A stretch of DNA of 51,876 nt from Flavobacterium sp. (GTDB lineage Bacteria; Bacteroidota; Bacteroidia; Flavobacteriales; Flavobacteriaceae). The stretch lies in the NCBI RefSeq assembly GCF_017985075.1, contig NZ_JAGNYF010000010.1:1-51876 (forward strand), in the 5' to 3' direction. Of the stretch, positions 3,297-50,882 are shown piece by piece. The notes under the pieces were generated by a model, which worked only from the letters and a program-made list of their open reading frames with translations, searched no databases and had not been told where the DNA came from. A program made the translations under genes and the position numbers. Position 1 is the first letter of the stretch. Each line of letters opens with the position of its first letter.

Positions 3297-3364
3297 AAGC
3301 AATATGCAATAAGCCATAAGCTATCAAAAGCCTAATGCTTACTGCCTAATGCTTAAAGCTATCA
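3297..3364 (+). repeat. Heptad word array, two opposed arms (infC-rpmI spacer)
   Basis: The left arm has four 7-bp words (AAGCAAT, ATGCAAT, AAGCCAT, AAGCTAT; 3297-3324). The right arm has five (GCCTAAT, GCTTACT, GCCTAAT, GCTTAAA, GCTATCA; 3330-3364). Phase is kept exactly at 7 bp. The arms are roughly reverse-complementary around a 5-nt gap, so the transcript between infC and rpmI could form an imperfect hairpin. The words belong to the same family as those at 39631-39717 and 47777-47811. Confidence 0.75.
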
Positions 3365-3402
3365 AGATAGTAAGTAAGAATAAATTAAATACCTAGGAAA
3401 AA

Positions 3403-3600
3403 ATGCCTAAAATGAAAACAAAATCTAGTGCTAAGAAACGATTTAAAGTTACTGGTTCTGGAAAGATCAAAAGAAAACACGCTTTTAAGAGTCACATTTT
3501 GACAAAAAAATCTAAAAAACGTAAATTAGCTTTAACTCACTCTGGTTTAGTTCATAAAACAGATGAGAAAAGCATTAAACAACAATTAAATATTATTTAA
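3403..3600 (+). CDS. rpmI: 50S ribosomal protein L35
   Basis: A 65-aa, strongly basic protein starting [15 protein letters not shown], the signature of L35. The [24 protein letters not shown] core (here [13 protein letters not shown]) is present, and the length is normal. L35 sits on the surface of the large subunit. The gene lies 112 bp after infC, a spacer largely filled by the word array at 3297-3364, and upstream of rplT. Regulation is probably as part of the thrS operon. Confidence 0.96.
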
Positions 3601-3644
3601 TACGTTGTTTGGTTAAAACTAATTAATAACCCTGGAGTGGGCAG

Positions 3645-3675
3645 ACTTCGACAGGCTTAGCCTGACAACAGAAGT
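3645..3675. repeat. Palindromic element in the rpmI-rplT spacer
   Basis: A nested inverted repeat: CAGGCT 652-657 faces AGCCTG 659-664 around one base, enclosed by ACTTC 645-649 and GAAGT 671-675 (positions within 3600-3700). The core TTCGACAGGCTTAGCCTGAC resembles a small palindromic word scattered through many bacterial genomes, including flavobacteria. It would form a hairpin in the mRNA between rpmI and rplT. Whether it is an interspersed repeat or a regulatory structure for L20 is undecided. Confidence 0.6.
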
Positions 3676-3721
3676 TGAAAGTACTAATAAAGTCGCCTTA
3701 CTACAAAAAACATTTAAAATT

Positions 3722-4066
3722 ATGCCAAGAGCAGTAAATTCAGTAGCTACAAGAGCTAAAAGAAAAAGAGTATTAAAACAAGCAAAAGGATTCTTCGGAA
3801 GACGTAAAAACGTTTGGACAGTCGCTAAAAATGCGGTAGAAAAAGCAATGTGCTATGCTTACCGTGATAGAAAGCAAAAGAAAAGAAATTTCCGTGCATT
3901 ATGGATTATGCGTATTAACGCTGGTGCAAGACAATACGGAATGAGCTATTCTCAGTTTATGGGTAAAGTAAAAGCTAACAATATCGAATTGAACCGTAAA
4001 GTTCTTGCAGATTTAGCTATGAACCACTCAGAAGCATTTGCAGCTATCGTAAATAAAGTGAAATAA
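3722..4066 (+). CDS. rplT: 50S ribosomal protein L20
   Basis: A 114-aa basic protein starting [20 protein letters not shown], with [17 protein letters not shown] and [20 protein letters not shown], the hallmark of L20. L20 binds 23S rRNA directly and is needed early in 50S assembly. The long N-terminal basic helix (1-60) and globular RNA-binding C-terminal domain are both complete. It is the last gene of the thrS operon, 121 bp after rpmI, and is followed by a strong terminator hairpin at 4101-4128. In other bacteria L20 represses its own operon through mRNA structures; the hairpin at 3645-3675 could have such a role here, but this is inference. Confidence 0.97.
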
Positions 4067-4100
4067 TCAACGTTTAATCATATTTATATCTTACTTATAC

Positions 4101-48977: not shown

Positions 48978-48989
48978 AAAATGTATTTT

Positions 48990-49021
48990 GTTTAGTTGTT
49001 TATTTGTTTAGTCGTTAAAAC
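48990..49021 (+). repeat. Octad word array, GTTTAnTT type (single arm)
   Basis: GTTTAGTT, GTTTATTT, GTTTAGTC, GTTAAAAC: four words with a strict 8-bp period starting with G, immediately upstream of the regulator's ATG (48977). Confidence 0.65.
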
Positions 49022-49048
49022 TAACATAAGTATACTATTTATTTCCTA

Positions 49049-49480
49049 TTAAAATTTATCAAATATTATTCCTAAACAAAACAGTACGAAAAATAAAATA
49101 GAACAAATTGAATTATACTTAGAATACAACCTGAAATCATCAATATATGATAATGAAAAATTATTTTTCTTTAAAACATCTATTTTATTAATTGAATCTG
49201 CAATATCAAAAGTTATCAAGAAAAATGAAAATATTAAAAAAACATATTCAAAATAAACTACTATAAATAATCTATATGCTAATAACATAACAATCAGCAT
49301 AATTAAAATAAACAGAATAAAATTAGTTCTCTTCCTAAAAATATTCTCTTTCAATCTTCTTTCTGTTGGATTTGAATATTTATAAATTCTGAATGATTTA
49401 TTAGACAAATAAGCCGTTGTAATTATAAATAAAATACAAAATATTTTAAACAAAATTTCTCCTTTTAATATTTCAACCAT
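49049..49480 (-). CDS. Membrane protein, unknown
   Basis: 143 aa. Hydrophobic segments at about 8-26, 51-71, 72-95 and 122-140 suggest four membrane helices; the loop 27-48 is basic (NKSFRIYKYSNPTERRLKENIFRKR). No family is recognised. Its start overlaps the 3' end of the ABC permease gene by 16 bp, so it is translationally coupled to the transporter and is a good candidate for an accessory subunit. The evidence for function is position only. Confidence 0.65.
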   Translation of the reverse strand: MVEILKGEILFKIFCILFIITTAYLSNKSFRIYKYSNPTERRLKENIFRKRTNFILFILIMLIVMLLAYRLFIVVYFEYVFLIFSFFLITFDIADSINKIDVLKKNNFSLSYIDDFRLYSKYNSICSILFFVLFCLGIIFDKF

Positions 49481-50769
49481 TTATACAATTCTTTCCAAGT
49501 TGGTTTTTTGCCGTACATTAAAATTCCTACACGGTAAATTTTGCTCGCAAACCAAACTACTCCCACAAATGTAGCAAATAATAAGACTAAAGACACAATT
49601 ATTTGCCAAGTGGGCACACCAAACGGAATACGCATTAGCATAACAATTGGCGATGTAAACGGAATCATAGAAAAAATCGTAGCAATATTTCCGTGAGGAT
49701 CGTTGGCAACGGTAAAAAATCCGATATATACGCCTAACATTAAAGGCATAATAATAGGCAATAAAAATTGTTGTGAATCAGTTTCATTATCAACAGCGGC
49801 ACCAATGGCAGCGTATAGAGAACTATATAAGAAATAACCACCAATGAAATAAAATATAAACGAAATGATAATTGTAGCAATCGGTAAATTTCCTAATTCA
49901 TCTAAATACAAAGGCAATTTCGACATTAATCCACTATTTTCAGTGGCTAATTTCACTGCTTGCGGATTAGCACTTGCAGCGGTTTCTGCACCAAAAAAGG
50001 TAGAAACTATAAAGAAAATAGAGGTTCCAACAATAGCCCAAATGGTAAATTGCAAAATTCCTGCTAAAGAATTTCCAATGATTTTCCCCATCATTAACTG
50101 AAATGGTTTTACAGATGAAATGACAATTTCTATAATTCGATTGGTTTTTTCTTCAATCACACTTCGCATCACAAAGTTTCCGTAAATGATAATAAACATC
50201 ATAATTAAGTAACCAAAAAGAAAACCTAATCCAATTTTAATTTCATTAATTCCTTTTAAACTGGCATCACCTGAATATTTACTTAATTGCAAAGTCGATT
50301 CCACTTTAGCCTTTTCAATTTTAGAAATATCTAAATTATTAGTTTTGAAATTATCTTGAGTCAAAATAGAATCCACAACATATTCAATGTTTGAGATAAA
50401 TTCTGCACTCGCACTTTCATCTGAAATATATTCAACTTTAGTCTTTAAATCTTGAATAGTTGCCGTTTTTGGAATAAACAAAAGTCCTTCATAACTTTTA
50501 CTCGCTGTGTCTTTTGCCACTTTAAATGGCATCGCAGACAAATCTGTAAATGCCGTTTCTTTGTCGGATTTTAAACTACTTTTTAATATATTTCCTTGGT
50601 CGTAAATAGCAATTTTAGTAGCCTCATCTTTATTGATACTTGATAAATAGCCAATTAAAAAAGACATTCCTAAGAAAATTAGCGGACTTAAAAAAGTCAT
50701 CACTATAAAAGATTTGTTGCGCACTTTGGCAATAAATTCTCTTTGTACGATTAATAATAATTTGTTCAT
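49465..50769 (-). CDS. ABC-2 family permease (NatB-like)
   Basis: 434 aa. One helix near residues 21-42 (SFIVMTFLSPLIFLGMSFLIGYLS), an extracytoplasmic domain of about 140 residues rich in Lys, Asp and Ser, then five or six helices from about 183 on. The motif RSVIEEKTNRIIEIVISSVKPFQLMMGKI is the standard ABC-2 cytoplasmic region of NatB-type sodium/drug exporters. The ATPase gene lies just upstream at 50885-51805. Substrate unknown; a membrane-stress or sodium role is suggested only by resemblance. Confidence 0.9.
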   Translation of the reverse strand: MNKLLLIVQREFIAKVRNKSFIVMTFLSPLIFLGMSFLIGYLSSINKDEATKIAIYDQGNILKSSLKSDKETAFTDLSAMPFKVAKDTASKSYEGLLFIPKTATIQDLKTKVEYISDESASAEFISNIEYVVDSILTQDNFKTNNLDISKIEKAKVESTLQLSKYSGDASLKGINEIKIGLGFLFGYLIMMFIIIYGNFVMRSVIEEKTNRIIEIVISSVKPFQLMMGKIIGNSLAGILQFTIWAIVGTSIFFIVSTFFGAETAASANPQAVKLATENSGLMSKLPLYLDELGNLPIATIIISFIFYFIGGYFLYSSLYAAIGAAVDNETDSQQFLLPIIMPLMLGVYIGFFTVANDPHGNIATIFSMIPFTSPIVMLMRIPFGVPTWQIIVSLVLLFATFVGVVWFASKIYRVGILMYGKKPTWKELYKWLKY

Positions 50770-50773
50770 TATG

Positions 50774-50882
50774 TTTTAGATTTTTAGAAGATTAGACTTC
50801 TTAGATTTTTAGCTTTATTTGATATTTAAGTGTATTAAAATTTTAGAAAATCTAATCCTCTAAAATTCTATTAATCTAAAAT
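50774..50882 (+). repeat. Octad word array, TTAGAnnn type, two opposed arms (ABC permease-ATPase spacer)
   Basis: Left arm: TTTTAGAT, TTTTAGAA, GATTAGAC, one 9-bp word TTCTTAGAT, TTTTAGCT (50774-50814). Right arm: TTAGAAAA, TCTAATCC, TCTAAAAT, TCTATTAA, TCTAAAAT (50843-50882), the last four being TTAGAnnn-type words in reverse complement at exact 8-bp steps. The arms are imperfect inverses, separated by 28 bp. The array fills the spacer and ends 3 bp before the ATPase stop codon. Confidence 0.75.

Follow-up and report, generated by a model that had tools for sequence, protein, structure and literature searches.

Why should an array of short intergenic words keep its step exactly while the words themselves lose their sequence? 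The question is raised by a stretch of 51,876 nucleotides from Flavobacterium sp. (contig NZ_JAGNYF010000010.1 of assembly GCF_017985075.1; "the window" below is this whole stretch). In 11 of its spacers an earlier note, made from the sequence alone, had pointed out degenerate 7-bp or 8-bp words, the periodicity of which appeared to be either selected or copied by an unusual mechanism. We consider it probable that these arrays are the arms, with or without the gene that belongs between them, of elements encoding a 23S rRNA-intervening sequence protein (IVP, also called S23), and that the elements are intergenic relatives of the intervening sequences (IVSs) of 23S rRNA.

To detect such arrays we scored column conservation over 3-9 words at periods of 5-12 in whole spacers, with dinucleotide shuffles as the control. 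All 11 spacers beat 200 shuffles each at P<=0.01, nine of them at 0.005 and two (spacers 39625 and 50770) at 0.010. The words read as had been claimed, the best array found by the detector overlaps the described stretch in 11 of 11 spacers, and the described period was recovered in 10; in spacer 36539-36823, where a mixed step had been reported at 36794-36824, the detector instead gives period 8 at 36774-36821. When 30 spacers of the window were each compared with 10 shuffles, all 11 lay above their own shuffles, as did, narrowly, 2 of the 19 others (spacer 2704, period 9, and spacer 7427, period 11). Note that plain whole-spacer autocorrelation is weak at some of these loci (spacer 40577, z=2.2 at lag 7; spacers 44454, 48978 and 36539, z=1.8, 2.1 and 1.6 at lag 8) because the array occupies only part of the spacer.

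Two of the arrays frame a gene. The arrays at 44457-44496 and 44916-44947 face each other around an open reading frame (ORF) at 44559-44915 on the forward strand; the earlier note had described both arrays (at 44464 and 44913) and had overlooked the gene between them. Its product belongs to family PF05635 (E=2.1e-41; 140.9 bits, against a curated cut-off of 33.8), and the AlphaFold2 (AF2) model is a four-helix bundle (pLDDT 94.7) that has the fold of known family members: Foldseek aligns it with 2gsc, the solved IVP from X. campestris (TM 0.87-0.93), and with 2rld (TM 0.80-0.84), each of which has five chains in the crystal. A weaker likeness is to Avd and ribonucleoprotein chains of diversity-generating retroelements (DGRs; TM 0.76-0.80, E 0.014-0.3), the best Avd match having TM 0.80 and E 0.014. 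The 5' arm holds five 8-bp words of the form nnnCTAAG on the forward strand (score 15.6, shuffle maximum 11.5), and the inverted 3' arm, which begins directly after the IVP stop codon, holds four CTTAGnnn words on the reverse strand (score 15.4, shuffle maximum 8.6). The element therefore resembles a 23S rRNA IVS in having an IVP ORF between complementary arms, as do those of the larger set described below, but it sits between protein genes and not in an rRNA gene. The genome to which the window belongs (G000) has six IVP matches, and word arrays flank all six by eye; the arms of one of them (contig C89, gene 30150-30464, GGTnnnn arms at 30081-30111 and 30490-30534) were also found independently by a search for the GGT pattern.

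The association of arrays with IVP genes extends well beyond this genome. We collected 120 IVP regions down the E-value-ranked match lists of genus and phylum genomes, so that the set leans to strong family members; after removal of 6 duplicates from 195 hits, 189 IVP genes remained, and these were compared with 265 control genes of similar size lying between co-directional neighbours. A 7- or 8-bp array with a score of at least 12 stood on at least one side of 120/189 IVP genes and 35/265 control genes, and at a score of at least 8 the counts were 164/189 and 51/265. Flanks shorter than 24 nt were unscored (for IVP genes 8/189 on the 5' side and 19/189 on the 3' side; for controls 105 and 82 of 265). 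Among scored flanks only, 170/351 had an array beside IVP genes and 40/343 beside controls, and among genes with both flanks scored the counts were 112/164 and 26/126; control flanks are the longer ones (median 91 nt, versus 55.5 nt for IVP flanks). With any period allowed, arrays were found in 92/181 of the 5' flanks (1.7 when shuffled) and in 83/170 of the 3' flanks (0.0). With a single IVP gene drawn for each site cluster, a mean of 44.3 out of 65 had an array, and so did 39 of the 62 IVP genes that came from outside the genus lists, 56 of which are from other genera. Moreover, a lag spectrum calculated without the detector from 333 IVP flanks has peaks at 7, 14, 21 and 8; weaker peaks at the same lags appear in the spacers sampled from the window's own genome and from loci of 80 relatives, and none in the spectrum of four genomes lacking IVP genes.

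An intact element thus consists of an IVP gene between two arrays, usually inverted relative to each other, mostly of 4-5 words at a step of 7 or 8 bases. The 5' flank aligned locally with the reverse complement of its own 3' flank at a score of 18.1, compared to 8.9 for arms of other loci, 9.8 for shuffled arms and 11.5 for the direct orientation; the inverted alignment was higher than the direct one in 140 of 164 elements and lower in 23. Both arms had the same period in 68 of the 71 elements in which each scored at least 10, and 150 of 211 arms had 4 or 5 words, within a search range of 3-9. The arrays nearly abut the neighbouring genes: the median distance from the upstream stop codon to the 5' array is 1 nt (111 arms), and that from the 3' array to the next start is 6 nt (95 arms). 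Where both neighbours were called, 168 of 182 IVP genes were co-directional with both. On the IVP sense strand the 5' arms are rich in G (G>C in 91 of 110, G<C in 9) and the 3' arms in C (C>G in 87 of 101, C<G in 12), a polarity that stands at 39 versus 4 of 50 when counted once per site. The commonest conserved anchor steps are AG (72/110) and GT (57). Word families vary by locus while the step stays. There is accordingly no one conserved palindrome of fixed sequence, unlike in repetitive extragenic palindromes and bacterial interspersed mosaic elements (REP/BIME); a search for their associated transposases (RAYTs) returned two PF01797 (Y1 transposase) matches in the window's genome, on contigs C12 and C47, outside the window, and the identity of these as RAYTs is putative. 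At one IVP locus of genome G088 (L418) period-6 arrays (TGACGA / CAATGA) stand on both sides of the gene, a possible third pitch.

Of the genomes sampled, 60 of 61 in the genus and 90 of 118 in the phylum have IVP genes; pairs of arms without a gene, and single arms, greatly outnumber these genes. In four contigs of the window's genome 21/207 spacers scored at least 14, against 0.0 in shuffles, 19 of the 21 having a period of 7 or 8. For the loci from 80 relatives the count was 125/1102, against 1.0, with period 7 in 102 and period 8 in 20. Array densities in these two samples may be high, because GGT arrays were already known from the four contigs and because the 80 loci were centred on a gene with arrays beside it in the window. 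The phased spacers therefore exceed their shuffles in the window, in its own genome and in relatives, the comparison by which the earlier note had proposed to judge the arrays. By type of spacer, period-7/8 arrays were found in 101/788 co-directional, 11/139 convergent and 10/175 divergent spacers. Five GGT at a 7-base step occur 40 times in the window's genome, compared to 2 for the reversed-pattern control. We rejected GGTnnnn as a genus-wide word, as it was found in 36/61 genus genomes and the reversed control in 33/61; heptamer phasing is therefore common, and the GGT word is not special to the genus. A second inverted arm accompanies 51/114 gene-less arrays of relatives and 4/18 in the own-genome sample; for 63/114 of the former no second arm was detectable in the spacer. 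If a gene-less array lies in the second half of its spacer, the C-rich polarity is retained (C>G in 58 versus 1 in relatives, 9 versus 1 in the window's genome); if its centre falls in the first half, neither polarity clearly prevails (16 G>C versus 22 C>G, and 8 versus 3). In genome G092 the words of 11 gene-less arrays resemble those of its own IVP elements (0.70 vs 0.57, p=0.03); the same comparison in G088 comprised only 4 gene-less arrays.

IVP genes outside the phylum have arrays around them as well. Plasmids searched by tblastn yielded 30 records, 12 of which (10 cyanobacterial, Gemmatirosa and Azospirillum) were picked for organism spread before their flanks were seen. In all 12, which come from three other phyla, a 5' array scored above the best of 10 shuffles (period 7 in 11, period 8 in one), 10 of 12 had a 3' array of period 7 or 8, and the arms matched better inverted in 10 of 12, clearly in 6. 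The Azospirillum copy lies inside 23S rRNA (RF02541) and has 7-bp arms; at least one classical IVS therefore has the same arms. Two Calothrix plasmid IVPs have 7-bp arrays and in this are like the short tandemly repeated (STRR) heptamers of cyanobacteria, the class to which the known Calothrix heptamers presumably belong.

The period of the arms follows the IVP phylogeny. In a tree built from 142 of these proteins, the label 7 or 8 requires 11 changes, compared to a mean of 39.2 and a minimum of 33 in 200 shuffles. IVPs at a tree distance of <=0.93 whose sites are not recognised as the same share their period in 98% of 193 pairs, and their words are alike (0.70, compared to about 0.38 for distant IVPs). 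The genes are under purifying selection (median dN/dS of 0.08; 57/66 pairs scorable). As to the arms, we compared 31 disjoint same-site pairs (14 sites in all), in which the opposite arm served to define the anchors. These diverge at 104/710 positions (0.146) and variable columns at 200/717 (0.279; Fisher 1e-9), while the rest of the spacer diverges at 245/1065 (0.230), so that the variable bases change at roughly the pace of the spacer around them; for G/C bases alone divergence is 0.149 at anchors and 0.445 at variable columns. (This test replaced a laxer one of 184 overlapping pairs, both members array-selected, in which the values were 0.081 for anchors, 0.320 for variable columns and 0.280 for the rest.) Adjacent words do not resemble each other more than words further apart do (0.451 at distance 1, 0.502 at 2, 0.527 at 3). 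These findings are in keeping with a periodicity that is selected; copying by an unusual mechanism is not supported, and no sign of templated copying was seen. That anchors and step are held while the filler drifts also answers how phase survives the loss of sequence.

We next consider turnover at orthologous spacers. Between gmk and nadD, 75 parsed loci of relatives (5 of 80 were left out as the nadD start was not recognised) include 14 with an IVP element and 8 with <=12 bp; the remainder hold gene-less arrays, other insertions or plain spacer. What stands at this place in other species is an IVP with AGT/TTAG words, some other insertion, or a gap of 1-12 bp. In front of the NA37 gene, the spacer was compared at the best 30 loci of 61 genomes: 11 have IVP-compatible lengths (342-522 nt, one of them degraded) and 10 are short, often with other words; in 9 the spacer could not be delimited (no start in 3, upstream gene end not recognised in 6). 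One of the relatives' loci, L096, has aligned pieces 88-94% identical to the window. (Its record is labelled Chryseobacterium gleum in spite of this likeness to a Flavobacterium-like window, and is probably a mislabelled metagenome-assembled genome.) At spacer 48978 this locus has GGT 7-bp words instead of 8-bp words; at gmk-nadD it has a word of about 10 bp where the window has GGT; at yicC-gmk an unrelated palindrome takes the place of the nnGC array; at spacer 35434 its 3' arm is, by reading, one 7-bp word shorter; at 47771 the array is contracted; and at 36539 no array was seen by reading. Clear orthologs stand at 40577 (diverged), 44457-44947 and 50770 (with changed words). The arrays thus behave as a distinct element, as the earlier note had surmised, being present, absent or different at the same spacer among relatives, and they occur throughout the genus.

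Several observations weigh against the reading as arms of IVP elements that the protein would recognise. Period and words that track the protein tree would equally fit passive arms that travel with the gene. The lower divergence of anchors relative to variable columns holds for 10 of 14 sites, not for all, and residues tied to the 7/8 switch could be sought in only 3 supported independent pairs, too few to compare. Among the plasmid IVPs, the arms of Nostoc HK-01 and Pseudanabaena fit better in direct orientation, with four near ties, and three of the genes lie between two oppositely oriented genes, which argues against an obligate role in a co-transcript. In the window's genome, gene-less words show no closer match to the IVP words of that genome than to those of others (0.56 vs 0.62, p=0.09, 34 arrays, the difference running the wrong way); many arrays there are therefore orphans. 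In 100-kb samples of 12 single-contig genomes, period-7/8 arrays scoring at least 12 were found in 0/207 spacers of genomes without an IVP gene, in 7/217 of genomes with one and in 17/211 of genomes with 9-14, but G162, which has 13 IVP genes, has arrays in 0/54 sampled spacers; because of this exception, and because phylogeny and G+C are confounded, the comparison lends weak support. Lastly, permuting the word order makes the duplex of the two arms slightly less stable (-24.7, against -26.2 for the real order, which has the lower energy in 58/88; p=0.0004), and this small excess suggests that stem pairing may add to the constraint.

Such pairing is the basis of the main rival explanation, in which the arms are kept to form a stem-loop in the transcript, like the 23S IVSs cut by RNase III, and the words and their pitch are by-products. 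IVS stems are indeed RNase III substrates (PMC4990558), and the duplex energy of -26.2 compares with -14.7 for dinucleotide-shuffled arms. However, the evidence for a precise stem is mixed: along with the small excess in free energy there is a null result at variable columns, where the arms match at 0.591 both as they stand and with word order permuted (83 elements, p=0.52). A stem, moreover, needs no fixed step of 7 or 8, whereas the step follows the protein tree, and more than half of the gene-less arrays of relatives (the 63/114 above) have no detectable second arm to pair with. We therefore regard stem-loops as an unlikely explanation of the arrays. Very unlikely, in our estimation, is that they are neutral minisatellites, duplications by slippage that decay, with IVP genes merely in the same spacers. 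Homogeneous arrays do exist (TGTTGGG is repeated at 38973), as does the one-word indel in L096, but the likeness of words does not rise with proximity, the anchors are conserved at their fixed step and the other bases drift, the arms are inverted, polar and specific to each IVP, and the periods are almost only 7 and 8. It was the conservation of anchors and the missing likeness of neighbours that led us to reject a tandem satellite. A reading as G-quadruplexes was set aside as well, as the nnGCnnn, AGTnnnn and CTAAGnnn arrays of the window hold, by reading, no row of GGG tracts.

Close to an even chance, and compatible with the reading as arms of IVP elements, is a selfish transposable element of which the arrays are the recognised ends and the IVP a mobility factor, the gene-less arrays being like miniature inverted-repeat transposable elements (MITEs) and moved in trans. 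Consistent with this are the presence, absence and replacement of word families at one spacer among relatives, the period and words shared by close IVPs at different sites, and the likeness of gene-less to own IVP words in G092. On the other side, the own-genome match is not seen in G000, the IVP is a plain four-helix bundle in which no catalytic domain was found, and no partner enzyme was identified. An enzyme of a particular kind is called for if the arrays belong to a DGR-like retroelement, in which the IVP is an Avd and the words are copied or mutated by a reverse transcriptase. Avd works with reverse transcriptase and structured RNA in DGRs (PMC12875486), and the IVP fold is similar (TM about 0.8), but reverse transcriptase was not found in some of the array-bearing genomes: RVT_1 gave no hit in the window's genome, which is 91% complete, or in the single-contig genomes G042 (6 IVP genes) and G088 (9 IVP genes), although the other 5 of the set of 7 genomes to which these two belong do have one. 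A reverse transcriptase is thus not required, its involvement is not supported, and we give this explanation hardly any credence.

For the preferred reading, that of arms of IVP elements, a mechanism can be sketched. An IVP oligomer would read the array as a multivalent ruler, with one anchor (often AG or GT) per subunit. The ligand could be RNA or DNA, and reading would probably take place on the transcript, because most elements lie between co-directional genes. A five-fold ring with one anchor per subunit is a candidate form (compare the five chains of the solved IVPs) and would account for the constancy of the step, for arms usually of 4-5 words, for the freedom of the filler and for the link between step and clade. 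Gene-less arrays may be copies whose gene was lost or left behind in a move. TRAP, an 11-mer ring protein, reads short (G/U)AG anchors at a fixed spacing with the spacer bases free; the likeness is in working only, TRAP's step is shorter, and we claim no homology. More tentatively, we propose a new protein-read code in which Avd-fold IVP oligomers would read a track of anchors, each at its own pitch (7 or 8), and so mark many transcripts across several phyla; 23S IVSs, the heptamers of Xanthomonas and Nostoc and the cyanobacterial STRRs might then be fragments of one system.

Comparable arrays and elements have been described, so the view that no named repeat class fits the arrays was only partly right. 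In one IVS, tandem heptamers whose number varies between strains lie upstream of the S23 ORF, and the function of both the IVSs and the protein they encode is described as unclear (PMC4990558). The present elements differ from these in lying between protein genes, several to a genome, and in being mostly gene-less and varied in their words. In Xanthomonas and Nostoc, arrays of GGGAATC / GGGGA(T/C)T heptamers of similar habits, degenerate, intergenic, about 4 units long and often in inverted pairs, were read as G-quadruplexes (PMC4692102); here there are many word families, several of them unable to form quadruplexes. The available text of that paper also cites heptanucleotide tandem repeats of Calothrix and does not contain "s23". 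What was already known is therefore the 23S IVSs, the heptamer arrays and the heptamers of one IVS. As to the general link to IVP genes and the pitch rule, in the open-licence literature, a scope that most subscription papers fall outside, we found no paper that links IVP genes in general to word arrays or gives such a rule. The link gives the IVP a testable candidate ligand and may join several unexplained repeat classes. It also concerns repeats conserved in spacing and a few anchors, not in sequence, which ordinary repeat finders score weakly.

The other arrays of the window are all gene-less or one-armed. Two arms, which the earlier note had reported at five loci, were seen by reading at each of them (3297, 35443, 38973, 39631 and 50774). 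These gene-less two-armed arrays are nnGCnnn words of 7 bp at 3297-3364, in the spacer after infC, a gene named by its IF3 domains (score 18.1, P=0.005); GGTnnnn words of 7 bp at 35438-35535, between gpsA and priA (27.3, P=0.005); GGTnnnn at 38969-39052, between gmk and nadD (25.1, P=0.005); nnGCnnn at 39628-39717, between yicC and gmk (15.4, P=0.010); and 8-bp TTAGAnnn words at 50774-50882, one arm of which scores 9.6 (P=0.010). Four arrays, all on the reverse strand, have a single arm: 8-bp words, AAAGTAAC in the transcript sense, at 36774-36821 (score 15.2), AGTnnnn words at 40612-40648 (12.7), nnGCnnn words at 47776-47811 (10.9) and 8-bp GTTTAGTT-like words at 48987-49021 (14.4), each with P=0.005.

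The gmk-nadD spacer holds further insertions in relatives. A stretch of F. columnare with guanylate kinase, a four helix bundle protein and nadD is listed among phage elements (PMC5524665, Table 5), and looks like the IVP element found here. Two-armed gene-less elements with words of about 10 bp (CGCAAAGATT / CTTTGCGAAT) occur, by reading, at L096:10574-10678 and at L114, L115, L117, L126, L133 and L148, and are a possible relative of longer pitch. Palindromes of another kind, GACGCGATTAATCGCGTC, stand there in L124 and L155, in tandem in the latter. Where the window has a word array, L096 has at 9910-10000 the palindrome TGTCATTCTGAAC..., which we take to be REP-like, and a like one at 18146-18220. 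In the window itself, two of the spacers 9079-9167, 15171-15390 and 19318-19470 share a near-identical hairpin and tail (AAAGTCC[CT]GATAAATC[GA]GGACTTTTAAGTAAAAAATTATTT) and the third has a similar hairpin; all are terminator-like.

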